Source of the DNA: a virus
Length of the DNA: 35,882 bases
Reading direction: 5' to 3' (one strand)
Virus record (IMG/VR): IMGVR_UViG_3300031951_000595
Location: 1-35,882 of that record
In this document: positions 9,217 through 27,514 of the stretch, piece by piece
Position numbering within the stretch: position 1 is the stretch's first letter
Layout of the letters: every line of letters starts with the position of its first letter
Position numbers and translations under genes: made by a program
Notes under the pieces: model-generated
The model's database searches: none
The model's input: only the letters and a program-made list of their open reading frames with translations
What the model was told of the DNA's origin: nothing

Positions 9217-9231
9217 CAGGAGACAGCACTC

Positions 9232-10530: not shown

Positions 10531-12918
10531 ATGCGCAGCGGTCAGATCCAGACCAACTTCACCGCCGGCGAGATTTCGCCGCGCATGTTCGGCCGCGTCG
10601 ACCTGCCGCAGTACGCCAACGCGGCGGCGACGATGGAGAACGCCTATCCGGTCATTCAGGGCGGCGCGGTGCGCAGCCCCGGCTCCCGCTACGTGGCCGA
10701 GACGAAGACCTCCGGTGCGGCGTGGCTGGTGCCGTTCGTGTTCTCGACGACGCAGGCCTACGTGCTGGAGTTCGGCGTCGGCTATATCCGGTTCTACCGC
10801 GACAAGGCGCAGCTGGTGTCCGGCACGCCGGTCGAGGTGGCGAGCCCTTACGCCGCGGCCGATCTGCCGGCGCTGGAGTTCACGCAGCAGGCCGACACGC
10901 TGATCGTATTCCACCCCGGCTACTACCCGCGCCGCCTGGTGCGCGAGTCGGACACGCGCTGGAAGTTCACCACGGTTCCGTTCCTCGTGGAACCAGCGGA
11001 GGAGGTGGGCGAAGCGCCCAACGTCACCTGCACGCTGTCTGCCACCACGGGCAGCATCACGGCCACGGCCGGCTCATCGCTCTGGACGCAGGCCGACGTC
11101 GGGCGACAGATTGCCTTCGGCACTGGGCTTGCCACAATCACGGCCTACACCAGCGCGACGCAGGTGTCGGCCACGGTGGTCGATGCGTTCAGCACGACCG
11201 CGCTGCCGAGCGGCGGCTGGGTGCTGACCGAGTCGCCGAAGACGCAATGCACGCCCTCAGCCACTGGCCCGGAGGGAACAGGCGTCACGCTGACGACCGG
11301 CACAGCCGCATGGAAGTCGACGAGCTACGACGCCGGCGCCTACGTGTGGATCAACGACGGCCTCGTCGAGATCACATCGGTCACCAGCGGCACGGTAGCG
11401 AACGGCATCGTGCGTGTGCCGCTCGCGAGTGCAGCCGCTGCGGCCTCTGGCGGCTGGCGCCGCATGCCGAAGGTGTGGGGCACGCGCTTCGGGTTCCCGA
11501 GCACTGGCGTGTTCCATGACCAGCGCCTCATCGCCGCCGGCGCACCCGGCTTGCCGGGCTACGTGTGGGGCACGCGCATCGGTGAGTATCTCAACTTCGC
11601 GCGCGGCACCAACGACGACGACGGCTTCAGCTTCGAGATGGTGAGCGCCGAGTACAACCGCGTCCTGCATCTCGTGGCGTCGCGCGTGCTGGTGCCGCTG
11701 ACCTCTGGCGGCGAGTTTGCGGTGTCGGGCTCCGGCGACCAGGTGCTCGGCCCGGTCAGCGCGCGGCGTGCGGCACTGTCGGACTACGGCTGCGGACAGG
11801 CCCGTCCGGTGCGGTTCGGGAACGACATCATCTTCGTGCAGGCGAGCGGCCGGAAGATCCGCGCACTGGCCTACACCAGCGAGCGCGAGGGGTACACCGC
11901 GCCGGACCTGACGCGCTTCGCGGAGCACGTCACGGAGTCCGGCATCATCCAGATGGCCATGCAGCGCGAGCCTGAAAGCCTGCTGTGGTGCGTGCGGGCT
12001 GACGGCACGCTGGCCGTGCTGACGCTGTACCGCGAGGCGCAGGAGGCGGACCAAGGCTTGAACGGCTGGAGCCGCCGGGTGACGGACGGCTGGTACGAAA
12101 GCGTCTGCCGCATTCCGGCCGGCGGCGTCGACCAGGTGTGGGCCGTGGTCCGGCGCACGGTCAACGGCGTGACGAAGCGCTACGTCGAAGTATTCGAGGA
12201 CGAACGCAACACCGACGCCAGCGTCGTCGGCACGACCTTCGCCACGGTGTCTGGCGCGAGCTGGGCCACCGGCACCGTGACCATCACGCGCAACGCGCAC
12301 GGCTACACGACGGGCGACACGGTACGTCATCGGCGGTTCGCGCCTGCTGGCTATAACGGCGACTACGTCGTCACGGTGACCGGCCCCAATACCTACACCT
12401 ATGCGCTGGCCACGAACCCGGGCACGGTCTCCACGCTCGGACAGGCGGGCAAGGCCACGGCCACCTGGTCCGGCCTGTCGCACCTCGAGGCCAAGTCCTG
12501 CGACGTGCTGGCGGATGGCGTGGTCATGCCTCGGCAGACCGTGGCGAGCGGCGCGGTGACGCTGCCGCGCGCAGCCTACGAGGTCGAGATAGGGCTCCCG
12601 TACACCTCGACCATCAAGCTCCTGCCCATCGAGGTCAGCCCCGGCACTGGCAGCAGTCAGGGCTCGCAGCTGTCCGTGCATGACGTCATCGTGCGGCTCA
12701 AGGGCACGCTGGGCCTGACCATCGAGGGCGTGACCATCCCTTTCCGCCAGTTCGGCGCAAGCATCCTCGACCGCGAGGTTCCGCCCTTCACCGGCGACAA
12801 GCGCCTCGGCCGGCTGTCGAACCTGTCCGATGGCGGCGTGGTCACGCTCCAGCAGCAGCAGCCGCTGCCGTTCCACGTGCTGGCCGTGGTCCGCAAGTTC
12901 ACATTCAACGATGGCTAG
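10531..12918 (+). CDS. Tail nozzle (tail tubular protein B-like)
   Basis: 795 residues, in line with T7 gp12-like nozzle proteins. The N-terminus (QIQTNFTAGEISPRMFGRVDLPQYANA, near residues 4-30), followed by ENAYPVIQGGAVRSPGSRYV, is diagnostic. Later segments (FGFPSTGVFHDQRL, ARGTNDDDGFSFEM, AALSDYGCGQARPVRFGNDIIFVQASGRKIR) match the beta-propeller-like body. A Ser/Thr-rich insert at about residues 165-300 looks like added Ig-like or beta domains. It forms the tip of the short tail. It follows the adaptor by two bases and overlaps the next gene by eight. Confidence 0.85.
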   Translation: MRSGQIQTNFTAGEISPRMFGRVDLPQYANAAATMENAYPVIQGGAVRSPGSRYVAETKTSGAAWLVPFVFSTTQAYVLEFGVGYIRFYRDKAQLVSGTPVEVASPYAAADLPALEFTQQADTLIVFHPGYYPRRLVRESDTRWKFTTVPFLVEPAEEVGEAPNVTCTLSATTGSITATAGSSLWTQADVGRQIAFGTGLATITAYTSATQVSATVVDAFSTTALPSGGWVLTESPKTQCTPSATGPEGTGVTLTTGTAAWKSTSYDAGAYVWINDGLVEITSVTSGTVANGIVRVPLASAAAAASGGWRRMPKVWGTRFGFPSTGVFHDQRLIAAGAPGLPGYVWGTRIGEYLNFARGTNDDDGFSFEMVSAEYNRVLHLVASRVLVPLTSGGEFAVSGSGDQVLGPVSARRAALSDYGCGQARPVRFGNDIIFVQASGRKIRALAYTSEREGYTAPDLTRFAEHVTESGIIQMAMQREPESLLWCVRADGTLAVLTLYREAQEADQGLNGWSRRVTDGWYESVCRIPAGGVDQVWAVVRRTVNGVTKRYVEVFEDERNTDASVVGTTFATVSGASWATGTVTITRNAHGYTTGDTVRHRRFAPAGYNGDYVVTVTGPNTYTYALATNPGTVSTLGQAGKATATWSGLSHLEAKSCDVLADGVVMPRQTVASGAVTLPRAAYEVEIGLPYTSTIKLLPIEVSPGTGSSQGSQLSVHDVIVRLKGTLGLTIEGVTIPFRQFGASILDREVPPFTGDKRLGRLSNLSDGGVVTLQQQQPLPFHVLAVVRKFTFNDG

Positions 12919-13375
12919 CCCCTGGCAGTTCCGCGCGTGGACGGATGCCGACCTCGAGCTGGCCGACCGGCTCAAGGCGGCCGACGTCGACGAGGTGCTG
13001 GCGGCCAGCGGGTTTGTCCCGGACGTGGCGCTGCGCGAGGCGGTCGACCTGTCCTGGCGCACCGAGGCCATTCTGGTCGACGGGCGCGTCGAGGGCGTCT
13101 GGGGGCTCGCGCATGCCGCAAAAGATCACGGCGTGCCGTGGATGCTGTCCAGCGACGTGCTCGTGCAGGACGCGCGGCAGATGGTGCGCGAAGGCCGACG
13201 CATCGTCGATGAGTGTCTGCAGATTTACCCGACCTTGTCGAACTGGGTGGACTGCCGGCACGTGGAGTCGCTGCGCTGGCTGCAGCGCATCGGCTTTGCG
13301 CCCGTCGAGCTCGATCGCGAGTACGGCGTCGGGCGCATCCCGTTTCTGAGAATGGAGACCGTGCGCAATGTGTGA
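12911..13375 (+). CDS. gp13-like internal virion protein
   Basis: 154 residues with a GNAT-like layout: FRAWTDADLELADRLK at the start, a central WRTEAILVDGRVEGVWGLA strand pair, and a final CRHVESLRWLQRIGF followed by PVELDREYG. This matches the T7 gp13 family (Phage_T7_Gp13), small virion-assembly proteins with an acetyltransferase-like fold that usually lack catalysis. The gene precedes gp14-, gp15- and gp16-like genes, in the T7 order. It overlaps both neighbours by eight bases. Confidence 0.75.
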   Translation: MASPWQFRAWTDADLELADRLKAADVDEVLAASGFVPDVALREAVDLSWRTEAILVDGRVEGVWGLAHAAKDHGVPWMLSSDVLVQDARQMVREGRRIVDECLQIYPTLSNWVDCRHVESLRWLQRIGFAPVELDREYGVGRIPFLRMETVRNV

Positions 13376-13970
13376 TCCAGTCACCGCGATCGCCGCAGTC
13401 GGCACAGGCATGCAGGTGGTCGGCGGCATCAAGAGTGCGAGCGCCGCCCGCAAGCAGGCGAACCAGCAGGCGGCTGGGATGGAGGCCAACGCCGCGCAGC
13501 TCGAATGGGAGCGCCAGCAGCGGCAGGCCGATGCGCAGGCCGCGCTCGACGCCGCCATGGTGCGGGGCGCAAAGGTCCGCGAGGTCGGCAAGCGGGACAT
13601 GGGATCGACCGTGGCAGCGCAGGCCAGCACCGGCATGGCGGTCGATGCTGGCTCCGCGGTCGATGTGCAGATCGAGCTGCAGCGTCGCATCCTCGAGGAC
13701 GCCGCGCAGGCCGAGCTCGAAGGCGAGCGCATCAAGAAGACCTACGAGGCGCAGGCCAACCAGCTGGGCATGCAGGCGGCTGACCAGCGGCAGGCGGCGG
13801 TGAACACGCGGCAGGCCGGCAAGGCCGCGTCCAACTCCATCCTGCTGTCGACCGCCACCAACGTCGCCAGCAACTGGATCAGCTCGCCGCTGCTCAACAA
13901 GCCCAGCACCGGCGGCGGTCCGGCGCTGACGAACCTTCGGCCCTACTTCCCGGCGGCGTACAACCGATGA
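13368..13970 (+). CDS. gp14-like internal core (ejection) protein
   Basis: 200 residues. The N-terminus MCDPVTAIAAVGTGMQVVGGIKS has a short hydrophobic glycine-rich helix. It is followed by a long Ala/Gln/Arg-rich coiled-coil region (about 25-150) and a Gly/Pro/Asn-rich tail ending in an aromatic segment (LRPYFPAAYNR). This matches the gp14-type internal virion protein that is ejected and inserted in the outer membrane to extend the tail. Gene order and size agree. Confidence 0.75.
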   Translation: MCDPVTAIAAVGTGMQVVGGIKSASAARKQANQQAAGMEANAAQLEWERQQRQADAQAALDAAMVRGAKVREVGKRDMGSTVAAQASTGMAVDAGSAVDVQIELQRRILEDAAQAELEGERIKKTYEAQANQLGMQAADQRQAAVNTRQAGKAASNSILLSTATNVASNWISSPLLNKPSTGGGPALTNLRPYFPAAYNR

Positions 13971-16027
13971 GACAGATCCCGCTCGACCAGTGGGGCCGCG
14001 ACACGGCCCGAGTGTTTCAGGGGCCGCAGGCGGCGACGCGCGACCCGCGTGCGTTCGTGACCGATGCCGGCGAGGCCATGGGCCGCGCGCTCTCGCAGTC
14101 CGGACAGGGGCTGCAGGACACGGCCGCGCAGCTCGCCGTCATGCAGCAGCGCGAGCAGGAGCGGCAGCGCATCGAGGCCGAGCAGGAAGCGGCGCGGCAG
14201 GCCCGCGAGCGGCAGATAGCTGAAAGCATTCAGGCGAAGCGCGACGAGCTGGAGGCAGAGGAGAAGCTGGTCGGGCAGACCCGCGCGATCGCCGAGCGCA
14301 CAGATCTGAACGCCGAGCAGAAGCGGCAGGAGTTCGACAAGCAGTTCGCCGCCGTCTCCGGCCAGTACCGGGGGCGATTCGTCGACCCGCAGGTGTCCGG
14401 TGGCTTCGACGTCAGCCTCGACAGCATCCGCATGCGCAACCGCGACGCGCTGGAGCGCGGCATCACCGCGCAGGCGCAGAGCCAGAACGCGGCCAACATC
14501 ATCGCGACCGTGCCGGTCCTGCAGCGAAAGTATGTGGGGGATCCAGAGCGAGGCGTCGCGGAGATGGAAAAGATCGTGCGCACCTCCGGCGCGGCTGCCG
14601 GCTGGGACGCGGCAGAGATTGAAAGCTTCGTGCAGACCGAGCGCGCGTCCATGTTTGCGACCAGCGCGGCGGCGGACATCGAGGCCGACCCGGCCGGCAC
14701 GCTGGAGCGGCTGCGCGGCGATGGCTACCAGTACCTCGACCCCGACAAGCGGTTGCAGCTCGTGGGCGTGGCGCAGGCCGAGCTGGACCGGCGGCAGGCG
14801 CAGGCCGAGCGGCAGGCCATGGCGCGGCTGACGATCGCAGATCGCGCGGTCAACAACGTGGCCGCCATCTACGACGCGGGCGGCATCCCGAAGCCGGCGC
14901 TGCTCGCAGAAGCCCAGACGATGGCGCGCGGCACGCCGGCCGAGGCTTCGTTCGACGCGCTGATGGGCACCGTGGCGGACCGTGCGCGCTTCGCGAACCT
15001 GCCGCTCGACCAGCAGGCGGCGGAGGTGCAGCTCCTCGATGCAGCTGCGCAGGATCCCGCGGTCGGCGTCGACCGTGCCGAGCTGTCTGCGCTGAACTGG
15101 AAGGCGAAGTCCTATAACGCCACGGTCAAGGCCGTGAAGGACGACCCGCTCGGCGCAGCCGCGCAGCGCGGGCTGGTGGAGCTCGACCCGCTCGACCTGA
15201 CGAGCCCGGAGAATCTCGGGGCCGGCATTCAGGACCGCATGCGCCGGGCCGCCGAGGTCGAAGCGTGGGCGGGGCGGAAGGTGCCGCCGCTGACCCGCGC
15301 GGAGATCGACGCGATGGCAGCGCAGCTGCAGAGCGGGCCGGTGCAAACGCAGGAGTTCTACCTGCGGGCGCTGTCGTCGGCGATGGACGATCCGGAGGCC
15401 TACCTGTCGGTGCTGCGCGTGATGGCGCCTAAGGCCCCGGCGCTGGCCGATGCAGGTCGTCTGCTGGTGCGCGAGGACACGGAGTCGCAGCGTGCGGGGG
15501 AGCTGCTGCTGAAAGGCGAGAGCTATCTCAACGTCCCGCAGGGCGAGTCCAAGAAGGTCCAGATGCCGCAGGCTAACGACCTGGTGCTCGCGTTCGAGGA
15601 CATGACCGAAGGGGCGTACGGCGCGAATGCCGTGCTCCGTGACTCCGACATGCAGAACTGGATGCGCATCTATGCGGCGCTCTCGGCGCAGGAAGGTGCG
15701 TATGCCCAGAAGGACGCAGGGGTCGACACCGACCGCGCCAAGCGCGCGCTGCAGCTCGCGACGGGCGGCGTGGACGAGTACAACGACGTCAACGTCGTAC
15801 TGCCACGCGGCATGGACGTGGACGAGCTGGGGCGCACCGCGCGCGCCCAGCTGCGCCAGATGCGCGAGGGCGGGCTCATCGCCGGCGGATTCACGCAGGC
15901 CCAGCTCGACCGCCTGCCGTTGCAGATTGCGACGCGCAACGGGCGGCAAGGCTACCGCGTGATGCAGGGCGGTGCCTACCTGCTCGACCGCGCCGGCGTG
16001 CCGGTGTTCATCGACCTGGGCCGCTGA
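13967..16027 (+). CDS. gp15-like internal virion protein
   Basis: 686 residues, ATGA-coupled to the gp14-like gene. It starts with a short linear segment (PLDQWGRDTARVFQGPQAATRDP). A Gln/Glu/Arg-rich coiled coil follows (about residues 40-110), then a long alpha-helical body with repeated armadillo-like helices (LAEAQTMARGTPAEASFDALMG, VLRVMAPKAPALADAGRLL). No catalytic motif is visible. T7 gp15 forms a tube spanning the periplasm during DNA entry; a similar role is inferred from order and length. Confidence 0.7.
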   Translation: MRQIPLDQWGRDTARVFQGPQAATRDPRAFVTDAGEAMGRALSQSGQGLQDTAAQLAVMQQREQERQRIEAEQEAARQARERQIAESIQAKRDELEAEEKLVGQTRAIAERTDLNAEQKRQEFDKQFAAVSGQYRGRFVDPQVSGGFDVSLDSIRMRNRDALERGITAQAQSQNAANIIATVPVLQRKYVGDPERGVAEMEKIVRTSGAAAGWDAAEIESFVQTERASMFATSAAADIEADPAGTLERLRGDGYQYLDPDKRLQLVGVAQAELDRRQAQAERQAMARLTIADRAVNNVAAIYDAGGIPKPALLAEAQTMARGTPAEASFDALMGTVADRARFANLPLDQQAAEVQLLDAAAQDPAVGVDRAELSALNWKAKSYNATVKAVKDDPLGAAAQRGLVELDPLDLTSPENLGAGIQDRMRRAAEVEAWAGRKVPPLTRAEIDAMAAQLQSGPVQTQEFYLRALSSAMDDPEAYLSVLRVMAPKAPALADAGRLLVREDTESQRAGELLLKGESYLNVPQGESKKVQMPQANDLVLAFEDMTEGAYGANAVLRDSDMQNWMRIYAALSAQEGAYAQKDAGVDTDRAKRALQLATGGVDEYNDVNVVLPRGMDVDELGRTARAQLRQMREGGLIAGGFTQAQLDRLPLQIATRNGRQGYRVMQGGAYLLDRAGVPVFIDLGR

Positions 16028-16028
16028 C

Positions 16029-18137
16029 GTGGCGGTCGAGTTCTTCCCTGACGAGGACGCGCTCATCGAGCGGGATGCCATGCGCAACCCGCTGACGCTC
16101 GACAACTACGAGACCCCTGCCTTCGCCGGCTTCGGCTCCGAGCTCTACCGCGCCCCGATGCGGGCGTTCGCCGGGCTGGGTGCGGCGGGCACACTGGCAG
16201 CGGCTGGCGCACTGCGCATGCACGGCATCACGGCGGCGGACGACACCCTCTTCAGCACGGTCGACCGCTTCCGGGCGGCGCGGGATTACTGGAGCGCGGA
16301 GCCGGGCGAAGTGGGCGTTGCCGGTCGGGTGGTCGGTGGGCTGACGGAGTTCGGCACGCTGCTCGGCCTCGGCCTCGGCAACCCTGCGCTCGCCATCGGC
16401 GCGACCGAGCTCAACACGGCGGCCGACCTTGCCACGCAGGGCGTCGACCCCATGACCGCCGTCGGCGCAGGCGTGGCCGAGGCGGCGACCACGGCCGCCG
16501 CATTCCAGGTACCGTTCTTCGGCAAGACCCTCGCGCAGCGCATCCTGTTCGGCGCAGGGGCAAACGTGGCGGGCGGGGCCGGCGTGAGCCTTGCCGTGCA
16601 GCAGGTGCTGGAGCGCCGCGGCTACGCCCAGCAGGCCGAAGCCTATGACCCGTGGAACCTCGAAGCGCGCGCGGTCGACGTGCTGGCCGGTGCGCTGTTC
16701 GGCGGTGTGTCGCATCGGCTGGACGCCCGGCGCGCGCAGGATACCCCGCCTCCACAAGCGGACGCGCCGCCGGCCGACGTGCCGCCAGCTGACGCTACGC
16801 TGACGCCAGACCCTGAAGTGCTCGACGCCGTCGCCGCGCTGAACGCTCACCGGCATCGTGTCGTCGACCTGGCACCGGGCCGCCCGCGCACGCCCGAGGC
16901 GCTCGACGCCCACGTCGCCGCCATCCGCCAGGCGGTCGGCGAGCTGGCAGCAGACCAGCCCGTCACGGCCTCGGTGCGGGCCGATGACTTCGAGACGCTG
17001 CCGCCGTCGCCGGAGGTCGAGGCCGCCCGGCAGGCGATGACCGAAGAGCTGAAGCCAGCGCCGCGCGTGCCGGCGGCACGGGAGACGATGCCAGTCGACG
17101 GGCAGCTAGGCGCCCGCCTGACGGAAATAGATCAGCTCCCGCCCGAGGGCGCAACGATAGCCCCTGCGCTGCGCCAAATGTTCGAGGCCGCTGCCCGGGC
17201 GAAACCTCAGTTCGACTCCATCGTGCAGGACATCGTGCGCGAGGTGGGCGGCGCGACCGCAATGCTGGCCGATCTGAAAGGCACGAAGCGCGCATTCGAC
17301 AAGGTCCGCGACGACTACGCGGGCGATGCATCGCAGATTAAGGATCTCGTGCGCGGCACCATTGAGGTCCGTACGCTGGAGCAGGCGCAGGCCGTCATCG
17401 AACGCCTCGGCCAACGCTTCGCCATCCTGCCGAAAGGGCAGCGGAACCTGCTACGCGCGGACGTTGAACCAGTCGACGGCTATCGGGATGCGAAATTCAA
17501 CGTGATGATCGACGGGCACGTCGCCGAAATTCAGGTGAATGTGCCCGCCATGATGGCGGCAAAGAAAGACGCGCACGCAGCCTACGAGGCCCGGAGCAAG
17601 ATCGAGCGGGCGAGTGCAAAGCGAGAACGAACCCCGGCCGAGCAGGCAGAGATTGATCGGCTGAACGCCGAGATGAAAGCGGTTTACGACTCAGCCTGGG
17701 CTGAAGCGACGAGCGCGCGAAATTCATCCCAGGAGACGGGTGCGCCGTTGCGGCGGGCCGATCCGGGGTCAAATGCGCGCGGCTCCGACTTGTCCCAGGC
17801 GGTCGATGAGAACGGGGATCCGGGCACGTTGCCCAGCGATACGGGGATGCCCTCGACGTCGAAGACTTCGACGCTGGGCGGAGCTGATGCTGGTAAAAGC
17901 ATGGATGGCACCTCTAACGGGCGCATTGTAGCACGTACCCCCCAAGGATTGGAGGAAGCCGCCGCGGCCGAAATCCTTCGCCGGTCGCCCGACCTGCAAA
18001 TCACCGACGACGACGGCAACGTCATCAGCGCTGCCGACGCGCTGGCCGCTGCCGATGCAGAGCTGGCCGCGGCCGAGACCCTTGCCCCAGGCGCGGAGGC
18101 GCTCGCGTCCTGCGCCATCCGCTTTATCGGAGACTGA
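16029..18137 (+). CDS. Ejection-type virion protein with embedded RelA/SpoT-like domain
   Basis: 702 residues from GTG 16029. The N-terminal third is Gly/Ala-rich and hydrophobic (about 35-215), like membrane-active parts of ejection proteins. A Pro-rich linker follows (about 235-280). Residues about 378-530 resemble the RelA/SpoT nucleotidyltransferase fold: K417-G-T-K420 helix, D439LVR442GTI, G484YRDAKFNV, H497VAEIQV and H516AAYE. The C-terminus (SPDLQITDDDG, then an ADAELAAAE helix) is a tail I recognise from other large phage-injected proteins. Delivery of this domain into the host at infection is inferred. Whether it synthesises (p)ppGpp-like alarmones, modifies RNA, or is inactive cannot be told by eye. 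Confidence 0.7.
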   Translation: MAVEFFPDEDALIERDAMRNPLTLDNYETPAFAGFGSELYRAPMRAFAGLGAAGTLAAAGALRMHGITAADDTLFSTVDRFRAARDYWSAEPGEVGVAGRVVGGLTEFGTLLGLGLGNPALAIGATELNTAADLATQGVDPMTAVGAGVAEAATTAAAFQVPFFGKTLAQRILFGAGANVAGGAGVSLAVQQVLERRGYAQQAEAYDPWNLEARAVDVLAGALFGGVSHRLDARRAQDTPPPQADAPPADVPPADATLTPDPEVLDAVAALNAHRHRVVDLAPGRPRTPEALDAHVAAIRQAVGELAADQPVTASVRADDFETLPPSPEVEAARQAMTEELKPAPRVPAARETMPVDGQLGARLTEIDQLPPEGATIAPALRQMFEAAARAKPQFDSIVQDIVREVGGATAMLADLKGTKRAFDKVRDDYAGDASQIKDLVRGTIEVRTLEQAQAVIERLGQRFAILPKGQRNLLRADVEPVDGYRDAKFNVMIDGHVAEIQVNVPAMMAAKKDAHAAYEARSKIERASAKRERTPAEQAEIDRLNAEMKAVYDSAWAEATSARNSSQETGAPLRRADPGSNARGSDLSQAVDENGDPGTLPSDTGMPSTSKTSTLGGADAGKSMDGTSNGRIVARTPQGLEEAAAAEILRRSPDLQITDDDGNVISAADALAAADAELAAAETLAPGAEALASCAIRFIGD

Positions 18138-18140
18138 CCC

Positions 18141-21100
18141 ATGGCGAGACCTGAGTGCGTGCAGGCAATGCGGCAGGCCATCGGCCGCAACCCGACCGCG
18201 GCCGAGGTGCGCGGCATCGAGGAGCGGCTCATCGGCGCGCTGCGCAGGCTGTCGCGTGAAGACCGCCTGAAGGTCATGGCCATGACGCCAGAGCAGCGGC
18301 TGCAGGAAGCTGCGCGCGTAGCGGCTGACGAGCTGCTCATCGAGGCCCGCAAGAAGCAGCAGCGCACCACGCTGTCGGTGCTGGCCGTGGGCCGCCTGAC
18401 GGATTACGTGCGCAGCTATCCCGGCAGGGCGCTGGACGCCCTCGACGAGCTGCTCGCCTTCAGCGCAAAAGCCAAGGGCCGGGTGCAGTCCGTCGAGACG
18501 CGGGCCGAGGCCATCCGCGGGGATGCCTGGATTCAGCTGAACGACGCCGGCTTCTGGGACGCGACAAGCCCAACGTGGCTAGGGCTGAAGGAGAACGCGC
18601 AAGGCGTCGAGCAGATGGTGCGCGCGCTGCACGGCGAGCAGGTCACGGACGCCAAGGTGATGCGCGCCGCAGAGCAGTGGCGCACCGTGGCCGAAGCTCT
18701 GCGTGCGCAGTTCAACGAGGCGGGCGGGCGCATCGGCAAGCTCGACGACTGGGGCATGCCGCATCACCACAGCAGCGCCAAGGTGGCCAAGGCCGGGCGC
18801 GACAAGTGGGTCGAGGACGTGATGCCGCACTTGCGCCGGGACCGCTACACCAACCTCGACGGCACGCTGATGGATGACACGCAGCTGCGCGACTTCCTCG
18901 GCGAGGCGTGGCTGTCCATTGCGAGCCAGGGCGCGAACAAGCTGGAGCCGGGCAGGGTCCGGGGCACCGGCATGAAAGCGAACCGGCACGCCGAGGAGCG
19001 GCAGATCCATTTCCAGAACGCGGACGCCTACATCGAGTATCAACGCCAGTACGGCGAGAAGGGCCTGTACGAGGTGCTGACCAGTCACGTCGACGTCATG
19101 GCCCGCGACCTGGCGCTGGTCGAAACCTTCGGCCCCAACCCGGACCATACCTTCCGCCTGCTGCTCGATGCGGCGCAGAAGGAAGCGGCCACGGCAGATC
19201 CGGCTAACGTCGGCAAGATCACCAGGCGAGTTCAGCATCTGGAGAAGCTGTTCAACCAGGTGTCAGGCCGGACCCTGCCCATTGCAGATCTGCGAATTTC
19301 CCGCTGGTCCGACAACATGAAGGCGCTGCTTATCGCATCGCGGCTAGGCTCTGCCATCGTTTCATCGATCACGGATTTCGCGACGATGCACGTCATCGCG
19401 CACATCAACGGCCTGAGCCACACGCAGCTCCTGCGCAACCAGCTCGCCACGCTGAATCCGTTCAACCGGCAAGAGCTGCGGCTCGCGCGGCGCACGGGCT
19501 TGGCCATGGACACGCTCATCGGCTCGCTGAACCGTTTCGGCGCTGACACGATGACCACGCTGCCGGCAAAAATCGCGTCGGCGGTCATGCGTGTGCAAGG
19601 CTTGAACGCTTTTACAGAAGCCAATCAGCGGGCGTTCGGGATCACGATGATGGACGCCCTCGGCAGCCTCACGCGCGAGAAGGCATTCAGCGAGCTGGAC
19701 GACATGGATAACCGGCTGCTGCGGTCCAAGGGCGTCACCGAGGCCGACTGGGGCCTGTGGCAGAAGGCGACGCTGGAGGACTTCGGCAACGGCAACGACG
19801 GCGTGCTGACGCCTGAGAGCATTGCGCAGATCGACGACGCCACGGTCGCCGACGTCATCCGCCCGCGCCTGAACGAGATCGAGGCCAAGGCCGACGAGGC
19901 CATCGACAAGCTGTACGAGCGGAACGCCACGGACCAGATCTGGATCACCCGGCGCATCGAGAAGCTGCAGGCCGCACGCACCCGCGCTGCCGATTTGCTG
20001 CAGCAGTACAGCACCCGAGTGAAGGGCAAGACCGACCAGACCACGCAGGCGCTGCGCGATCGCGGCGAGCTGGTCAAGGCCCGCGCCGAGCGCGCTGCGG
20101 TCGAGGCCGACATCAACGCTTATCTGCTGGCCCAGAAGCAGCAGGAACAGGTCCGCAATTTCCTGTACGCGGTCGAGGAGGGCGCGGCGGCCGAGGGCAT
20201 GATGCCGCGTGTCGAGCGCAATGTGCAGGCCGCCAGCCGCCAGCGCGGCGGGATCGGTGAGAAGCTCGGCCGCCGGCTGGCCAAGTCCGAGCGGGCCATC
20301 GCCGACCTCGAGCAGCGCATCAAGGTTGCCGAGGCCGACGCGCAGCTGCGCATCGACGGCAAGGACAAAGCGCTGGCCGACCGGCTCGACGCGCAGGCCA
20401 AGGAGCTGGCTGGCATGGTGTCCCGCGCGCGCGAGCGGTTCGAGGCGCGGCGCATGCAGATCGACCGCATCGAGCAGCAGGTCGAAGTCCAGAAGGACCG
20501 CGCCATCCGGCAGGCCCGGCGCGACGCCATGCTGCGGCTCATCGGCACGGTGACCGAGGAGGTCGACATGGCCGTCATCAAGCCGGGGGCGCGTGAGCGG
20601 GCGGCCATGTACGACAACTTGCAACGGGGCACGATCTCAGGCGAGCTGGTGCGCTCGTTCTTTTTGTTCAAGTCGTTTCCCATTGCGATGCTGATGCGGC
20701 ACTGGCGGCGTGCATCGACGCTGCCGGGCACGGGGCGTGCCGTCTACGCGGCGTCGCTGATTGCGTCCACAACCTTGCTCGGCGCGCTGGTCCTGCAAAT
20801 CAAGGAGCTGATAAATGGGCGCGATCCAGTGGAAATGAGCAACGCCAAGTTCTGGGGCAAGTCTTTAGCCCAAGGCGGCGCGCTGGGCTTGTACGGCGAT
20901 TTCCTTTACAGCTCGTCGACGCAAGGCGGGCGCAGCCTGTTGGCGTCTGTTGCAGGCCCGCAGATCGGGCTCCTCGAAGAAGCGATCGCGCTCACGCATG
21001 GCAACCTTATGGAGGCCGCGCAAGGCGAAGACACGAATTTCATGCCAGAGTTGACGAAGTTCGTGAAAGGCATCACGCCGGGCAGTAACCTCTGGTATGC

Positions 21101-21272
21101 GCGCGCGGCGTTCGATCACCTGATCTTCCAACAGCTTCAGGACTATTGGTCCCCCGGCTACATCCGCAACATGAAGCGGCGGGCGCGCAAGGAGTTCGGC
21201 CAGGAATACTGGTGGGAGCCCGGGGAAGCCTCCCCGCGGCGCGGTCCAGACTTTGAAAGGGCGTTGGAATGA
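18141..21272 (+). CDS. gp16-like large internal virion protein
   Basis: 1043 residues, the longest gene. Its start has CGGAGA nearby. The N-terminal part is helical and basic, followed by LDDWGMPHHHSSAKVAKAG (about residue 198-215), a motif common in large phage DNA-transfer proteins. A charged coiled coil spans about 570-800. Near the C-terminus are ELVRSFFLFKSFPIAMLMRHW and a hydrophobic stretch (ASLIASTTLLGALVLQI, about 870-890) that could enter membrane. No N-terminal transglycosylase motif was seen, unlike T7 gp16. It probably forms part of the DNA-ejection channel. Confidence 0.75.
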   Translation: MARPECVQAMRQAIGRNPTAAEVRGIEERLIGALRRLSREDRLKVMAMTPEQRLQEAARVAADELLIEARKKQQRTTLSVLAVGRLTDYVRSYPGRALDALDELLAFSAKAKGRVQSVETRAEAIRGDAWIQLNDAGFWDATSPTWLGLKENAQGVEQMVRALHGEQVTDAKVMRAAEQWRTVAEALRAQFNEAGGRIGKLDDWGMPHHHSSAKVAKAGRDKWVEDVMPHLRRDRYTNLDGTLMDDTQLRDFLGEAWLSIASQGANKLEPGRVRGTGMKANRHAEERQIHFQNADAYIEYQRQYGEKGLYEVLTSHVDVMARDLALVETFGPNPDHTFRLLLDAAQKEAATADPANVGKITRRVQHLEKLFNQVSGRTLPIADLRISRWSDNMKALLIASRLGSAIVSSITDFATMHVIAHINGLSHTQLLRNQLATLNPFNRQELRLARRTGLAMDTLIGSLNRFGADTMTTLPAKIASAVMRVQGLNAFTEANQRAFGITMMDALGSLTREKAFSELDDMDNRLLRSKGVTEADWGLWQKATLEDFGNGNDGVLTPESIAQIDDATVADVIRPRLNEIEAKADEAIDKLYERNATDQIWITRRIEKLQAARTRAADLLQQYSTRVKGKTDQTTQALRDRGELVKARAERAAVEADINAYLLAQKQQEQVRNFLYAVEEGAAAEGMMPRVERNVQAASRQRGGIGEKLGRRLAKSERAIADLEQRIKVAEADAQLRIDGKDKALADRLDAQAKELAGMVSRARERFEARRMQIDRIEQQVEVQKDRAIRQARRDAMLRLIGTVTEEVDMAVIKPGARERAAMYDNLQRGTISGELVRSFFLFKSFPIAMLMRHWRRASTLPGTGRAVYAASLIASTTLLGALVLQIKELINGRDPVEMSNAKFWGKSLAQGGALGLYGDFLYSSSTQGGRSLLASVAGPQIGLLEEAIALTHGNLMEAAQGEDTNFMPELTKFVKGITPGSNLWYARAAFDHLIFQQLQDYWSPGYIRNMKRRARKEFGQEYWWEPGEASPRRGPDFERALE

Positions 21273-21499
21273 AACAGCTACTCGAAGGTGTCGGTGCGCT
21301 GCTGGTTATCTTTTCCGTGGGCGTGCCAGGCGGCGCGACGTTGTTCGGAGCGTTCTGGCTTATCAAGCTCATACCGCAGCCATGGCAGTCCGGGCTGTTG
21401 TTCGTCACGCTGCTCGCCGCGCCGTTCTGGATGGTGGTCTCCGTCACCTGGACGTTCCGCAAGATCGAATCCTTCCTTCGCTGGAGCAAGCTGGCATGA
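21269..21499 (+). CDS. Two-TM membrane protein, candidate holin
   Basis: Seventy-six residues, ATGA-coupled to the gp16-like gene. There are two hydrophobic segments, about 6-32 (VGALLVIFSVGVPGG, then FGAFWLIKLI) and 38-60 (SGLLFVTLLAAPFWMVVSV), with a positively charged end (RKIESFLRWSKLA). Size and topology fit a small class II-type holin. Its place just before small terminase equals that of T7 gp17.5, the T7 holin. A second small membrane protein at 26188 is another candidate. Confidence 0.6.
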   Translation: MKQLLEGVGALLVIFSVGVPGGATLFGAFWLIKLIPQPWQSGLLFVTLLAAPFWMVVSVTWTFRKIESFLRWSKLA

Positions 21500-21831
21500 C
21501 CATCAAGATCCGACCCGACCAGCTCGAGCGCATGAACGACCTCGCGCAGCGTCTCACCGAGGTATTCCTCGAAGAGTGCGACCCGACGCACTGGCCCGAC
21601 CTCGACAGCCGCGATGGCCGGGGAGATCGTCTGTGGCTGAAGAAGAACGCGGCCAAGACGCTCGCCATCGTCACCCAGCTCGTGTTCGTCGGGCAGCGCA
21701 TCGAGGGCCGGGACAGCAATGCGCCGACAGAGCACGACCATGACCTTGAGCAGCTGATCGCCCGCGCCGAGCAGCGGGCCGCTGCCATGCTCCGGGCGCA
21801 CGATGGCGGCGGCAAGAAGACCCCGCATTAG
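21496..21831 (+). CDS. Putative terminase small subunit
   Basis: 111 residues, ATGA-coupled upstream and overlapping the large subunit gene by 29 bases. It is mostly helical, with IRPDQLERMNDLAQRLTEVF, then THWPDLDSRDGRGDRLW and a helix LKKNAAKTLAIVTQLVFVGQR. This arrangement is like T7 gp18-type small terminase or packaging proteins (DNA-maturation A subunit). The neighbouring large terminase supports it. Sequence recognition alone is moderate. Confidence 0.65.
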   Translation: MTIKIRPDQLERMNDLAQRLTEVFLEECDPTHWPDLDSRDGRGDRLWLKKNAAKTLAIVTQLVFVGQRIEGRDSNAPTEHDHDLEQLIARAEQRAAAMLRAHDGGGKKTPH

Positions 21832-23410
21832 TTTCGTCGCGTTCTTCCTGCTCTGGGCCGAGGTTCAGGGCTGGGAGGTGCCGGAGCTCCACTTTCGGAT
21901 CTGCCACTGGCTCGAACGCCGGGGGCGTCTGGCCGTGCTCGAGGTGTTCCGTGGCGCGGCCAAGTCCACGATCGTCGCGGTGTATCAGGCGTGGCGGCTT
22001 TACTGTGACGCTGGCTGGCGCTTTCTCGACCAGGGAGCGGACGACCCGGTTTCCTACAAGCTTTCGCGTGATACGCGGGCTGTGCTGCGCCGGCATCCGC
22101 TCTGCCGCGGCATGCTGCCCGGTGGCCAACCGGGCGCGGCGCGCTTCGACGTCGTCGGCAACCCGGACGCCCGCAATGCCAACGTGACGGCGCACGGGAT
22201 CATGTCGAACGTGACCGCCGCCCGCGCCGACGAGGTGGTCTTCGACGACATCGAGGTGCCGCGCAACATTCGCAACGCAGAGGCGCGCAACGCCTTGCGG
22301 GAGCGCACCAGCGAGGCGACGCACATCCTTGTGCCCGGCGGGCTCAAGCTCTACATCGGCACGCCCCATACGCATGACAGCATCTACGACGAGCAGATCC
22401 GCCGCGGCGCGGACGTGCTGAAGATCCCACTGTTCGAGGATCACGTCCGCTACGACAAGCCCGAGCAGCGGCGCTTCCCGTTCAACTTCGAGCCGGCGAG
22501 CGATGGGCTCTATGTGTTCATGGGGCCGCGCCTGCTGGTCGAGGGCGTCGACTACCTGGTGCAGGGCAGGGCCGTGGTGTTTGACCAGCCGCCGGGCCAG
22601 CCGATCGACATCTACGCGCGGTGCGCGTGGCCGCAGCGGTTCAGCCGCGAGGAGATCGCCTTCCGGCGCGCGGAGTGCAAGACCATCAACGAATGGGACA
22701 GCCAGTACCAGCTGAAGGCCAAGCCCATCGGCGCGATCCGGCTCGACCCGTCGCGGATCGTGCCCTACGACGCGGAGCCGGAAATTGCCATGGCGAACGG
22801 CTCCGTGCGGCTCATGCTCGGCCGCACCCAGCTGGTGTCAGCGTCAGCCTATTGGGACTGCGCGCTCGGCAAGATCGGCGGCGACACCTCGGCGCTGTCG
22901 GTCGTGTTCAGCAATGAGCGCGGCCACCTGTTCTGGCACGTGGCGCAGGCGCTGCGCGGCGACATCTACGACCAGTGCGGCCAGATATTGGAAACCACGC
23001 GGCGGCTGCAGCTACCGTCCATCACCGTGGAGACGAACGGTCCGGGCGGCTTCGTACCGCCCATCCTGCGCAAGACGCTAGCAGGCACCGGGGTGTCGGT
23101 CGTCGAGGCGTTCCAGCCGGGCACGACCAACAAGGACCGGCGCATCCTCGACGGACTGGAGCCGCCGCTCTCGGGGCGGTTCCTCTGGGCACACACCAGC
23201 GTGCTCGACGCCGTCGAGGACCAGATGCGCGACTGGGTGCCGGGCGTGGCCGGGCAGCCGGACGACTTCCTCGACTCCGGCGCTGAAGCCATCAAGGCGC
23301 AGCCGGTGCGGATCGGGCGAGTGGTCGGCGAGGTCGCCGGGCAGGCGCGGAGAGACTGGCGCCCCAGCAGTGGCGTGCATGAGGTAGAGCTCGACTTCGG
23401 GGGACGATAG
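21803..23410 (+). CDS. Terminase large subunit (T7 type)
   Basis: 535 residues. The ATPase domain has a Walker A-like RGAAKST (50-56), a DxxSYKLSRDTRAVLRRHPLC block and Walker B EVVFDDIE (144-151). An IGTPHTHDSIYDE coupling motif follows. The RNase H-like nuclease has YWDCALGKIGGD near 351, a VETNG strand near 411 and DDFLDSGAEAI near the end. The layout is that of T7 gp19-like packaging motors. Translation begins inside the small subunit gene. Such terminases usually cut at fixed direct terminal repeats or concatemer junctions; the packaging mode here is not visible. Confidence 0.9.
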   Translation: MAAARRPRISFVAFFLLWAEVQGWEVPELHFRICHWLERRGRLAVLEVFRGAAKSTIVAVYQAWRLYCDAGWRFLDQGADDPVSYKLSRDTRAVLRRHPLCRGMLPGGQPGAARFDVVGNPDARNANVTAHGIMSNVTAARADEVVFDDIEVPRNIRNAEARNALRERTSEATHILVPGGLKLYIGTPHTHDSIYDEQIRRGADVLKIPLFEDHVRYDKPEQRRFPFNFEPASDGLYVFMGPRLLVEGVDYLVQGRAVVFDQPPGQPIDIYARCAWPQRFSREEIAFRRAECKTINEWDSQYQLKAKPIGAIRLDPSRIVPYDAEPEIAMANGSVRLMLGRTQLVSASAYWDCALGKIGGDTSALSVVFSNERGHLFWHVAQALRGDIYDQCGQILETTRRLQLPSITVETNGPGGFVPPILRKTLAGTGVSVVEAFQPGTTNKDRRILDGLEPPLSGRFLWAHTSVLDAVEDQMRDWVPGVAGQPDDFLDSGAEAIKAQPVRIGRVVGEVAGQARRDWRPSSGVHEVELDFGGR

Positions 23411-24780
23411 TGCCGGTCAACACCAACCAGCCGATCAACAACTACACGGGCAACGGGGCAGCCGTCGCCTACCCGTTCACGTTCTACGTCATTTCGGCGG
23501 CGCATCTCGTCGTGACCGTCGACGGGGTCGTGCAGTCGCTCGGCACGAACTACACCATTACCGGCCTGCGCAGCCCGACGGGCGGCACCGTGACCTTCGT
23601 CGTGGCGCCTGGCGCAGGGTCTGCCGTCCGGCTCCGGCGGGTCATGCCGTACAGCCGGACAATCGACTATCAGGACGCCGGCGACCTGCTGGCGCAAACG
23701 CTGGACGACGACATCGACGGCACCGTCATGCTCATCCAGCAGCTGGAATACCAGGCCCGGTTTTTCCTGCGCAACGCGGACACGCTGGCCGGCGTCTCGC
23801 CGCTGATGCCGAGCCCGCAGGCGCTCAAGCTGCTGCGCTGGAACAGCGCCGGCAACGCGCTGGAGAACACCGACGTGGCCGGGCTCATCCCGGGTTTCGT
23901 GACCGTCACGAGCTTCGCGCAGGGCCTTCTCGACGACGTCAGCCAGAGCGAAGCGCAGGCCACGCTGGGCGTCACTGGCTCTGCCGACACGGCCAAGCTG
24001 ACGAGCGCGGCGAATGTGTTCACGAAGACCCAGACCTGGCGCTTTGCGACCGTGGCCAGCGCGGCCACGCTGACGCTGGCGGACGGGAACCTGTTCAACG
24101 TCACGGGCACCACGAACATCTCGGCGATCGCCAGCATCGCACCCGGCACGATGGTGGCGCTTCGATTCACCGGCGCGCTGACCATCGCGCACGGCGCATC
24201 TCTCGTCCTGCCCGGCGCGGCGGGCATCACCACTGCCGCCGGGGACATCGCCATCTTCTTCGAGGGCGCGGCAGGGGTCTGGTACTGCATGGCCTACACG
24301 AAGGCCGACGGCACGCCCGTCGCGCAGACGGCGGCTCCTGGTTCGATCATCGCGTTTGCCGGCACCTCGACGCCTACAGGCTACCTGGAGTGCAACGGCG
24401 CCAACGTCAGCCGCACGACCTACGCCGCGCTGTTTGCCGCCGTCGGCACCACCTGGGGCGCGGGCGACGGAGTCACTACCTTTGCCCTGCCGGACCTGCG
24501 CCGGCGCACGCTGGTCGGCAAGGGCGGCACGGGCACTGGCGTGCTGGGCAATACGGTCGGCGCCACGGGCGGCGCGGAAACGAACAGTCACACGCATTCC
24601 GCGACCGGCCTGTCGGGCTCGTTCACCGTGGGGGTTACAAACACAGGCGCGGCCGGCGGAGGCGTGTGGGTTCTGACTGGGCAAACACAGCCCGTCACCA
24701 TTTCCGGCAGCACTGCCGGCGCATCCGACACCAACAACATGCCGCCCTCGGCCGTCGTCGGTTACTTCATCAAAATCTAG
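23410..24780 (+). CDS. Tail fibre with T7 gp17-like N-terminus and collar domain
   Basis: 456 residues with GTG 23410 overlapping the terminase TAG by one base; a GGGGGA Shine-Dalgarno precedes it. The first 130 residues (GNGAAVAYPFTFYVISAAHLVV, then RVMPYSRTIDYQDAGDLLAQTLDDDID) match the virion-anchor domain of T7 gp17. The middle is a beta-rich shaft. At about 310-375 lies a phage tail collar domain (PTGYLECNGANVSR, then TFALPDLRRR), and the end reads MPPSAVVGYFIKI. It recognises the host surface. No variable-repeat signature of a retroelement was found. Confidence 0.85.
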   Translation: MPVNTNQPINNYTGNGAAVAYPFTFYVISAAHLVVTVDGVVQSLGTNYTITGLRSPTGGTVTFVVAPGAGSAVRLRRVMPYSRTIDYQDAGDLLAQTLDDDIDGTVMLIQQLEYQARFFLRNADTLAGVSPLMPSPQALKLLRWNSAGNALENTDVAGLIPGFVTVTSFAQGLLDDVSQSEAQATLGVTGSADTAKLTSAANVFTKTQTWRFATVASAATLTLADGNLFNVTGTTNISAIASIAPGTMVALRFTGALTIAHGASLVLPGAAGITTAAGDIAIFFEGAAGVWYCMAYTKADGTPVAQTAAPGSIIAFAGTSTPTGYLECNGANVSRTTYAALFAAVGTTWGAGDGVTTFALPDLRRRTLVGKGGTGTGVLGNTVGATGGAETNSHTHSATGLSGSFTVGVTNTGAAGGGVWVLTGQTQPVTISGSTAGASDTNNMPPSAVVGYFIKI

Positions 24781-25503: not shown

Positions 25504-25850
25504 GCGAGACCCTCGGCCAGAAGCAGCGGCGCTTCACCCGCCTCGTGGGGCTGCTCATCGAATATGCCTACAACAACGGCATGGAGCTGACCTTCGGCGA
25601 CGCCTACCGCGACCCGGCGCAGGCGCGCGCGAACGCCGCTGCAGGCAAGGGCATCATCAACAGCCTGCACGTCGAGCGGCTGGCGGTCGACTTCAACCTC
25701 TTCATCGGCGGCGTGTACCAGACGGACAGCGCCGCCTACAAAGCGCTCGGCGAATACTGGGAGAGCCTCGCGCCGGATGCCGCATGGGGCGGCAGGTTCA
25801 GCCGGCCGGACGGGAACCACTTCAGCATTCGCCACGGCGGGCGCGCATGA
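25500..25850 (+). CDS. Endolysin, M15-type L-Ala-D-Glu peptidase
   Basis: 116 residues, ATGA-coupled. The zinc-peptidase signature is visible: S55-L-H57 with A62-V-D64 and D104-G-N-H107-F. H57, D64 and H107 would bind zinc and D104 would be catalytic, by comparison with the T5-type endopeptidase. There is no signal peptide, so release depends on a holin. The domain lacks a separate cell-wall-binding region and is near the minimum size for the family. It cleaves peptide cross-links in peptidoglycan. Confidence 0.82.
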   Translation: MSETLGQKQRRFTRLVGLLIEYAYNNGMELTFGDAYRDPAQARANAAAGKGIINSLHVERLAVDFNLFIGGVYQTDSAAYKALGEYWESLAPDAAWGGRFSRPDGNHFSIRHGGRA

Positions 25851-25958
25851 GGCCATTACACAGCCGGCATGGACGCCGAGCGACTGAGATTCAGGGACGC
25901 GGTACGACCGGCGCTGCTCGCGTACACGGCGCCCCTTTGCATGTGGGAGGCATTGCGG

Positions 25959-26560: not shown

Positions 26561-27514
26561 TCACGTACGCGTCACAGGCTTCCGCTTCTTTGCCATCTTC
26601 CGCATGGCCTGATCGTGGTGCCTGTCCTCGAGGTGGGCGTAGCGGCTCGTCATCTGCATCGTGCTGTGGCCCATCAGGTCTTTCAGCAGGCGCAGGTCGA
26701 CGCCGGCGTCGATGGCCCAGCTGGCGAAGGTGTGGCGCAGATCGTGGAACCGGACGCCCGGCAGGCCAGCCGCCCGTCGGGCCCTGTCAAAGTCCTTGCG
26801 CAACGCCACGACCGTCACTGCCAGCGGCAAGCGCTCGCAGATGTACCGGGCATCGGCCGGCACCGGCACGCGCCGTGGGCGGCCAGACTTGCTGGTCGCC
26901 AGCCATAGTGCCCCGTCCCGGTAATGCTCAGGCCGCAGGGCAAGCAATTCGCCTCGACGCAGGCCAGTGGTAGCGGCCAGCCAGATCGCGTCTCTGGTGC
27001 CCTCGTGCGCAGCCTGAGAGGCAATCGCGGCGACTTGGTGCTGGTCAAGGTAGACGTGCCGCTCCTGGTTCTCGCGCAGCAGCTCGACGCGCTTGCCGGC
27101 CGGGCTGTCGGTCCATCCCCACTTGTACGCGAGATTGCCCAGCCGTCGGAGCAGGGCGAGCTGTCGATTGATGGTGGCCGGGGTGCGGCCTCGCTTCTGG
27201 CCGTCTCGGATGACGTCGGCGGCGGCGTCAGCGATGCGGTCGATCGGACGGTCGCAGAATGGCCTGATGACCTTGGCGACGTAGAGCAGGGAATCGAACG
27301 ACCGGAGCGCGGTGGCTCCGGTCTCTAGGTAGTCGGCAAGTGCGTCCTTAAGGGTACGATTGGGGCTGAGGCCGACCCGCTCGCGCTCGAGGTCGCGCCG
27401 CAGTTTCGCCTCGACTTCGAGCGCCGTGGCTTTGGTCCCAACAGTCTGTCGAGCACGGCGTCCGCCGACCTGTACGTCGACCTGCCAGGCGTCGCCACGC
27501 TTGCGGACGGGCAT
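26561..27514 (-). CDS. int: Tyrosine integrase
   Basis: 317 residues. An N-terminal DNA-binding strand region (KRGDAWQVDVQVGGRR) and a SAM-like core-binding domain (about 55-150) precede the catalytic domain. The catalytic set is complete: R186 in TGLRRGEL, K209 in SKSGRPRR, H257-D-L-R260, H283 in MGHST and nucleophile Y292 in SRYAHL. It catalyses integration at the adjacent tRNA-Leu attP and excision with the excisionase. Its start lies inside the excisionase gene. It reads away from the leftward promoter at about 32.8 kb. Confidence 0.93.
   Translation of the reverse strand: MPVRKRGDAWQVDVQVGGRRARQTVGTKATALEVEAKLRRDLERERVGLSPNRTLKDALADYLETGATALRSFDSLLYVAKVIRPFCDRPIDRIADAAADVIRDGQKRGRTPATINRQLALLRRLGNLAYKWGWTDSPAGKRVELLRENQERHVYLDQHQVAAIASQAAHEGTRDAIWLAATTGLRRGELLALRPEHYRDGALWLATSKSGRPRRVPVPADARYICERLPLAVTVVALRKDFDRARRAAGLPGVRFHDLRHTFASWAIDAGVDLRLLKDLMGHSTMQMTSRYAHLEDRHHDQAMRKMAKKRKPVTRT
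26568..26578 (+). repeat. Right-side CGCGTCACAGG, candidate integrase arm site
   Basis: Third perfect copy of the arm-type word, same orientation as the left pair, overlapping codons near the integrase C-terminus. A partial CGCGTCAC copy sits just before it at 26557-26564. Confidence 0.5.

Follow-up and report, generated by a model that had tools for sequence, protein, structure and literature searches.

A RelA/SpoT-type enzyme domain in an exchangeable cassette of a predicted phage ejection protein

Why does a gene in the ejection-protein block of a phage encode a domain that resembles enzymes of the RelA/SpoT family? The window analyzed here is the whole 35,882-nt stretch of the IMG/VR virus record IMGVR_UViG_3300031951_000595 (positions 1 to 35,882), and the gene in question, at 16029-18137, lies between a gp15-like and a gp17-like gene, the position held by the gp16-like ejection proteins of epsilon15. 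The original prediction, made from the sequence alone, had placed a 702-residue gene among ejection genes here, and the translation, together with the neighboring matches to phrog_992 and phrog_684, confirms this location. As judged from sequence comparison, the RelA/SpoT block is an exchangeable cassette inside a constant carrier. The parts of the carrier, all on the + strand, are as follows.

16029-18137, +: gp16-like carrier gene, 702 aa, frame without internal stops
16029..17063, +: N-terminal part of the carrier, aa 1-345, mostly helical (L001 identity; phrog_1145, E 1.3e-22)
17064..17960, +: exchanged cassette with linkers, aa 346-644 (blastp against L001; blastn gap 17018-17987)
17154..17723, +: predicted RelA/SpoT-type nucleotide pyrophosphokinase (Tas1-like) domain, about aa 376-565 (sequence, predicted fold, conservation)
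17343..17360, +: syn2 motif D439LVRGT, of the RxT type as in Apk/Tas1 synthetases
17478..17495, +: syn3 acceptor-base motif G484YRDAK, neither GxN nor SxH
17526..17540, +: syn4 motif E500IQVN, identical to that of Tas1
17724..17951, +: disordered linker, aa 566-641 (AlphaFold2)
17952..18137, +: conserved C-terminal tail, aa 642-702, present also in carriers that lack a cassette

Identity and predicted fold of the domain

In a phmmer comparison of the whole protein with the PDB chain sequences, the only match at E<=10 was Tas1 (6ox6_A; E 5.5e-9, query residues 376-516). Profiles built from 8 sequences and from 19 sequences of the family also retrieved Tas1 (E 1.2e-12, next match 0.004, and E 6e-19, next match 0.0026, respectively). 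The Pfam family RelA_SpoT (PF04607) matches the isolated region at E 0.0095 with 16.6 bits, below the gathering score of 27 bits, and the whole 702-aa protein shows no Pfam family at E<=1, and thus no MuF domain, so that Pfam alone would miss the domain. A relative, gp034 of the Bordetella phage vB_BbrM_PHB04, which belongs to the same GYRD family and is 34% identical to the window domain, does pass this cut-off (30.6 bits vs 27). The carrier protein has no match in PADLOC at E<=10, and no 19-residue window of its Kyte-Doolittle hydropathy profile exceeds 1.6. The sole NCBIfam match, to a streptococcal adhesin (E 0.032), scored 11.5 bits against a cut-off of 1500 and was taken as chance.

The best AlphaFold2 model of residues 358-583, computed with 7 relatives, has a predicted local distance difference test score (pLDDT) of 73.9 and a predicted template modeling score of 0.63. 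Foldseek ranks Tas1 first in the PDB (E 1e-4, prob 1.00), and ranks 1-6 are all RelA/SpoT homologs (RSH) or small alarmone synthetases (SAS). In VIA-align, Tas1 is again at the top (Z 12.7, root-mean-square deviation 2.9, 165 residues, 28% identity), followed by SAS2 structures (11.7) and CapRel (10.2 and 10.1); the first 27 rows are all RSH or SAS, and the first row from outside the family has Z 7.1. The sequence and model comparisons confirm residues ~376-565 as a RelA/SpoT-type pyrophosphokinase domain with the predicted RSH synthetase fold. The identification and the toxin-like affinity proposed originally are borne out, with Tas1 as the closest match by both sequence and fold. The placement at residues ~378-530 was too narrow: the domain is there but reaches ~565, and the exchanged piece is larger still (about 17064-17960). 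The disordered linker that was expected after the domain is found at residues 566-641, where pLDDT is below 50.

Active site and conservation

The motifs D439LVR, G484YRDAK, E500IQV and H516AAY occur in the order that had been claimed for them. By comparison with RelA-type structures, we take D439 and E500 to be the two Mg2+ ligands and Y485 to be the base-stacking residue, and the alignments with Tas1 agree with these placements. All the catalytic positions of RSH synthetases (syn1 K/R, syn2 D, G-loop Y, syn4 E) are present. Conservation was assessed with 41 different domain sequences drawn from 53 rows. The window domain keeps 21/21 positions with conservation of 90% or higher among the 40 other family sequences, including K417, R421, K425, D439, R442, Y485, D487, E500, Q502, K512, H516 and Y519, and matches the majority residue at 70/150 positions overall (Fisher p 1.7e-8 for 21/21 vs 49/129, a rough guide because the rows are related). 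In an earlier test with 8 other rows, 22/24 conserved positions were kept (the losses being G409A and P415D), compared to 42/102 overall. A decayed domain retained only as structure, the alternative offered in the original prediction, is disfavored by the 21 retained positions.

The motifs are less decisive on the acceptor. Apk-type (ppApp) synthetases have RYT in syn2, GxN in syn3 and YH in syn4, and RSH-type (ppGpp) enzymes have AVR, SxH and IR (PMC12226406, of which, as of the other papers cited here, part of the text was available). The window domain resembles Tas1 in syn2 (RGT) and syn4 (VN), but its syn3, GYRDAK, departs from both the ppApp and the ppGpp pattern. GYRD occupies syn3 in at least 36 of the 41 family sequences, followed by varied residues, so this motif is a family trait rather than damage. 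In 7/41 sequences, syn3 ends in N (GYRDVN, GYRDIN) as in the ppApp class; the window has K. By analogy with Tas1, an adenine nucleotide is the most likely acceptor, though no more than that, because GYRDAK fits neither class.

Cassette exchange against a close relative

The exchange is most apparent in the comparison with L001, an IMG/VR contig (also L004, L010 and L099) that encodes a 674-aa relative of the carrier. The two proteins are 67% identical over residues 3-345 by BLAST (73% in a MAFFT alignment) and alike again over residues 645-701; between these ends the similarity stops, and the middle of the L001 protein is a PBECR3 nuclease (E 3.6e-22). The DNA tells the same story: identity is 77-82% in 13041-17017, except for short gaps between hits, and 79% in 17988-24139, and blastn finds no collinear match between 17018 and 17987. 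Matches to L001 from within the cassette are short and non-collinear, the best of them 24 bases long (E 0.004). A proline-rich linker of the carrier, 16710-16790, also lacks a blastn match to L001. The suggestion that the block had been swapped in as a cassette is, of all the original claims, the most strongly supported, with PBECR3 in the same gap of L001 between flanks of high DNA identity. Constant N- and C-terminal ends around a differing middle amount to a polymorphic-toxin layout, with the toxin part placed internally instead of at a terminus.

Each cassette has a lower G+C content than its carrier (window 0.629 vs 0.733; L001 0.584 vs 0.742). The lower local G+C content noted originally is real but mild, since 5.3% of the 555-bp windows in 2800-24700 are as low. 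We rejected it as proof of import, because of these windows and because the gp17-like gene dips too. That dip reaches 0.617 at 19100-19399 and stays at ~0.62 across 19100-19550.

Other carriers and the contents of their slots

A search with a profile built from six carriers yielded 26 loci from viruses and 5 from genomes. We counted 27 carriers, that is, these 31 minus the copies L113 and L125 and minus L105, L106 and L111, which are cut by contig ends, plus the window. The N-terminal part of the window carrier is 35-37% identical to those of four further carriers. In the full-length AlphaFold2 model, this part has pLDDT 68-82 over a block at ~31-230 and 60-77 at 281-340, with values below 55 between them.

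The slot is empty, as judged by length, in 7/27 carriers (404-448 aa; L128 has ~423 aa from a presumed internal start), and no Pfam family was found in those put to Pfam (L128, and L017, a copy of L104). Zeta toxin fills it in 8/27, with L101 and L112 assigned through their copies L015 and L013, and L117, L120, L121 and L122 included because they are 84% or more identical to the scanned L115. A ddrB-ParB domain is present in 3/27, one of which, L108, also has Zeta, and another, L114, was counted by 87% identity to L107. Single carriers hold an ART-like domain (26.4 and 29.5 bits, below the cut-off of 31.2), PBECR3 and, in the window, RelA/SpoT. The remaining 6/27 (L102, L103, L116, L129 and the near copies L118 and L123) have no assigned domain; the cassette pieces of L011, L103, L111, L116, L129 and phiV10 gave no Pfam match over the cut-off.

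Several cassettes show further features. The Zeta domain was seen in the slots of L015 (3368-6004), L013/L014 (3932-6004), L115 and L124; in L015, L115 and L124, it comes after an extra stretch that is weakly SLT-like in L015 (E 0.085). The L116 carrier (6944-9538) contains HESGHFYLDVL, which by eye resembles a zinc metallopeptidase motif, with no Pfam match over the cut-off. The cassette of L129 (6962-9406), L118 and L123 contains ALKHIHDSRPDIA, which on visual inspection resembles a PBECR-type nuclease; in the case of L129, the locus is part of a Stenotrophomonas chromosome scaffold.

The surroundings of the carriers are stable. The gp17-like gene directly follows the carrier in 26/31 loci, and a gp15-like match is present in 23/31. 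Of the five loci without gp17, L105, L106, L111 and L128 break off within the carrier or close to it, and L116 has no gp17-like match within 2 kb after it. Through the gp17-like gene, we also found genes of ~950 aa in the same place, grouped with the carriers by position only; ddrB-ParB is present in all 6 that were scanned (L007, L009, L016, L018, L025 and L046), and an SLT match over the cut-off in 3/6. Same-place genes of 591-640 aa (L006 phiV10, L008 Shamal and L019) gave no Pfam match over the cut-off. Among the 80 of 320 loci listed, most are near copies of the phiV10 type, to whose 591-602-aa proteins the window carrier shows about 25-30% identity (E about 1e-11 to 1e-16). A weak carrier match in L005 had no closed frame of 200 aa over it, although a frame that extends past the edge of the locus would escape such a listing.

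The carrier tree does not add evidence of frequent swapping, because its 25 rows require 11 state changes for 11 states, near the possible minimum of 10; exchange is shown by the DNA break against L001. In this tree, each unassigned cassette was a state of its own, the upstream extensions of L118, L119 and L128 were trimmed, and L105, L106 and L111 (cut by contig ends), L113 and L125 (identical) and L117 and L122 (near copies) were left out.

The same enzyme family in other settings

A scan with five domain sequences found 52 viral loci, which were assigned to context groups by hand. Eight of them (L142, L144-L148, L161, L163) lie in the ejection-protein slot. In all of these except L161, the gp17-like gene comes next downstream of the enzyme gene; L161, cut at its 3' end, has the carrier and a gp15-like gene upstream. 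The window protein is 38% identical to that of L161 over residues 2-672 and 39% identical to that of L142 over 120-599. Because L144-L148 are mutually alike, the slot loci represent four further lineages. L161 and L163 carry a RelA domain together with ddrB-ParB; in the window protein, one enzyme domain was recognized. In the domain tree, the slot label needs 4 changes (bootstrap 3-5). The starred branches, however, require just 1, and the tree thus does not demonstrate that the domain entered the slot repeatedly; the long branches of L161, L184 and L188 are unsure.

A single clade (100/99) unites 10/52 loci (L150-L158 and L162). The member that was scanned, L150 (237-2513), is a portal protein with a C-terminal enzyme (Phage_portal_3, E 1.6e-15); if the portal fusion is real, each portal ring would bear many copies of the enzyme. 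The PHB04 type accounts for a further 17/52 loci, and in 15 of these the locus includes a match to the PHB04 portal. Given these portal loci and the portal-fusion clade, many of the family's settings are virion ones. Long frames of 1382-3709 aa, some of them cut, make up 9/52 loci; of the two that were scanned, L141 (2891 aa) gave weak matches to helicase and RadC, and L149 contains ddrB-ParB. The other 8/52 fall outside these groups. Among 369 genomes of one class, profile A7 had matches in 3 places at E<=1e-8, so the family is rare in that sample. L138 (1120-1986) encodes a 288-aa protein with the same GYRD domain and an N-terminus that is hydrophobic by eye, perhaps exported or anchored.

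Immunity partners

PHB04 gp034 is a separate gene beside the portal of a 94-kb phage, and the second gene downstream of it encodes an HD_4 protein (E 3.3e-21). This order of enzyme, small gene and HD hydrolase resembles apk2-iapK-aph1, as described in the available text of PMC12226406. We searched the locus flanks with the PHB04 HD_4 protein by tblastn. An HD match is found 183-227 nt downstream in 11/17 PHB04-type loci; 5 of the 6 without one extend more than 3.6 kb downstream, which shows that the pairing has exceptions. In the portal-fusion group, 6/10 loci have a match 2.0-3.2 kb downstream, and the four misses have less than 2 kb of sequence left. Matches were obtained in 3/17 loci outside the slot, PHB04 and portal groups, and in 0/8 slot loci, five of which have more than 4 kb downstream. 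On the scale of contigs, HD_4 is present in 6/8 PHB04-type contigs searched and absent from 8/9 further whole contigs (6 slot contigs, L141, L143 and L149), which may be fragments. The sole HD_4 among the 6 whole slot contigs is that of L148, at 2839-3198, ~21 kb from the RelA gene. By analogy, this pattern suggests that the relatives behave like toxins with product-removing partners, and that the slot type lacks one, at least nearby.

Gene neighborhood and lifestyle

The genes around the carrier code for virion proteins, and an integrase gene lies farther downstream.

12830-13375, +: internal virion protein (phrog_308, E 1.5e-24)
13368-13970, +: internal virion protein, T7 gp14-like (phrog_418, E 1.4e-11; Pfam T7_gp14 E 0.01, under the cut-off)
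13967..16027, +: gp15-like ejection/head protein (phrog_992, E 4e-44; 72% identity in the L001 contig)
18141..21272, +: gp17-like virion structural (pilot) protein (phrog_684, E 6.3e-262), starting 3 nt after the carrier
26561..27514, -: integrase (PF00589, E 7.6e-21)

The phage also encodes RecT and, going by its integrase, is probably temperate. Two long reverse-strand frames, 28632-29633 (-) and 25377-26327 (-), have no Pfam match at E<=0.01; one of them matches phrog_5086, of unknown function (E 1.7e-9).

Proposed function and alternatives

T7-type ejection proteins exit the head first and build a channel for the passage of DNA. We consider it likely that the phage is a temperate one of the short-tailed type and that the carrier, its epsilon15 gp16-like ejection protein, delivers an exchangeable, intact RelA/SpoT effector. 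Under this proposal, the helical N-terminal part and the C-terminal tail would, by synteny and family, assign the protein to the virion core and injection channel, and the RelA/SpoT domain would enter the host together with the DNA. Because it needs ATP, the domain would have to reach the cytoplasm, where it may move pyrophosphate from ATP to a nucleotide 3'-OH, likeliest that of an adenine nucleotide as in Tas1. The nucleotide pool would be drawn down, and host growth or defense slowed, in the first minutes of infection. If the constant ends handle packaging and channel formation while the middle is cargo, a cassette placed between them is the expected arrangement. We infer packaging and injection from the gene's place and family, and activity, acceptor and benefit to the phage likewise belong to this proposed part. 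Polyvalent RelA/SpoT domains have been proposed to shut down or alter host transcription and translation, according to the available text of PMC5512222.

Several points weigh against this proposal. The five models of the domain have middling confidence (pLDDT 55.9-73.9), and in the full-length AlphaFold2 model (pLDDT 58.0), the RelA domain is not folded, because the underlying alignment A9, made of carriers with other cassettes or none, lacked relatives of the domain. The mismatch of syn3 with GxN leaves the product uncertain. The slot loci L144-L148 show no match to the N-terminus of the window carrier and have in common with the window only the gp17-like gene that follows. The whole window record and L001 lack HD_4, and no immunity gene lies directly downstream of the window enzyme, where the gp17-like gene follows after 3 nt, although only HD_4, and not Tis1- or IapK-like genes, was searched for. 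Furthermore, the enzyme would need to refold after entry, given that ejection proteins are thought to traverse the channel in an unfolded or partly unfolded state.

The uncertain product bears on a variant that is possible, though on balance we doubt it, in which the enzyme is active on another acceptor, pyrophosphorylating the tRNA CCA end (like FaRel2 and CapRel), producing (p)ppGpp or modifying some other nucleotide, for example, a defense signal, with translation arrest, a stringent-like response or signal destruction as the effect rather than ATP depletion. The GYRD of syn3, unlike both GxN and SxH, fits such an acceptor, as do the CapRel structures among the matches to the model. However, the ppApp synthetase Tas1 tops every comparison and shares RxT in syn2 and VN in syn4, 7/41 sequences do carry the N of the GxN motif (in the window, K takes its place), and the HD_4 hydrolases near the relatives suggest a small pyrophosphorylated nucleotide as the product. 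The missing partner gene weighs against a reading that we regard as rather unlikely, a competition weapon in the style of MuF toxins, which would serve the lysogen, not the infection, and poison the non-immune cells that are hit, would-be lysogens among them. The integrase agrees with it, and MuF toxins with RelA-like domains have been proposed to act in this way (PMC5576092, available part), yet the next gene starts 3 nt on, and HD genes are missing from the record, from the flanks of all eight slot loci and from all but one of the six whole slot contigs, where the gene is ~21 kb away; this holds for HD genes, Tis1- and IapK-like ones having been outside the search.

That the protein is not a virion component but is expressed late and acts in the producing cell, for example, halting host growth before lysis, appears improbable: phiV10-type kin are annotated as similar to epsilon15p16, a gene in the same place in the Alcaligenes phage Piluca is annotated as an epsilon15 gp16-like tail protein, the carrier directly precedes the gp17-like gene in most loci, and its ends are conserved whatever the cassette. 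Least probable of all, in our estimate, is a decayed or purely structural filler. The score below the Pfam cut-off and the relatives with wholly different domains or none, which indicate that the place tolerates much, would agree with a filler; the conserved positions are all retained, and carriers of 404-448 aa without room for the domain demonstrate that no filler is needed. A broader version of the proposed delivery seems unlikely on present evidence, namely, that the injector of short-tailed phages is a general effector platform and that the GYRD class pyrophosphorylates an acceptor other than GTP/ATP (e.g., tRNA or a defense signal nucleotide), disarming the cell at entry without an immunity partner.

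Relation to known systems and implications

The closest solved relative of the domain, Tas1/Apk1, is a type VI effector of Pseudomonas aeruginosa and an antibacterial (p)ppApp synthetase. It shares with the window domain the syn1 K/R, the syn2 D and RxT, and EIQVN in syn4, but its acceptor motif is GYSGVN, as opposed to GYRDAK, and, unlike Tas1, the window domain is inside a phage ejection protein, with no immunity gene found adjoining. Apk2 and other MuF RelA-like toxins (PMC12226406, PMC5576092, available parts) likewise come from temperate phages, in a head-gene setting, with a toxin thought to be virion-carried; in contrast, no MuF domain was found in the window protein, its cassette is internal with a conserved tail after it, and no iapK- or aph1-like genes directly follow the enzyme. 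Polyvalent proteins, as far as the available text of PMC5512222 describes them, have the same effector set (RelA/SpoT, PBECR, ART, ddrB-ParB), a virion-gene context and mosaic exchange. Their polypeptides have 2 to 15 domains, according to the abstract. The window protein differs in its fixed epsilon15 gp16-like frame with defined N and C ends, and a single effector domain is recognized in it, whereas L161 and L163 combine two. With the T7/P22/epsilon15 ejection proteins (available part of PMC8954989), the locus shares the operon order and the internal virion proteins. Those proteins are known to swap a peptidoglycan-hydrolase domain, and the available text does not contain the word toxin; for the domains swapped here, the predicted targets are nucleotides, nucleic acids or proteins.

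That MuF, portal or polyvalent proteins of phages can contain RelA/SpoT and PBECR domains is already known, as the available parts of PMC5512222, PMC5576092 and PMC12691689 document. We did not find any account of podovirus ejection proteins serving as carriers of exchangeable effectors, in a search that covered few subscription journals and did not extend to the supplements of PMC5512222. This suggests that the novelty lies in the carrier, not in virion-delivered effector domains.

The MuF and portal fusions make toxin injection by phages plausible, yet the route is hard to test. The carrier described here is one component of the ejection machinery in a phage type that has been studied intensively (epsilon15, phiV10), and natural carriers with different cassettes or none provide a ready comparison of a loaded and an empty injector. 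The GYRD family widens the known range of RelA/SpoT enzymes. If the enzyme enters the cell, it would be a nucleotide-pool weapon that acts before phage gene expression, and may help to reveal which of the host's early responses phages must suppress.

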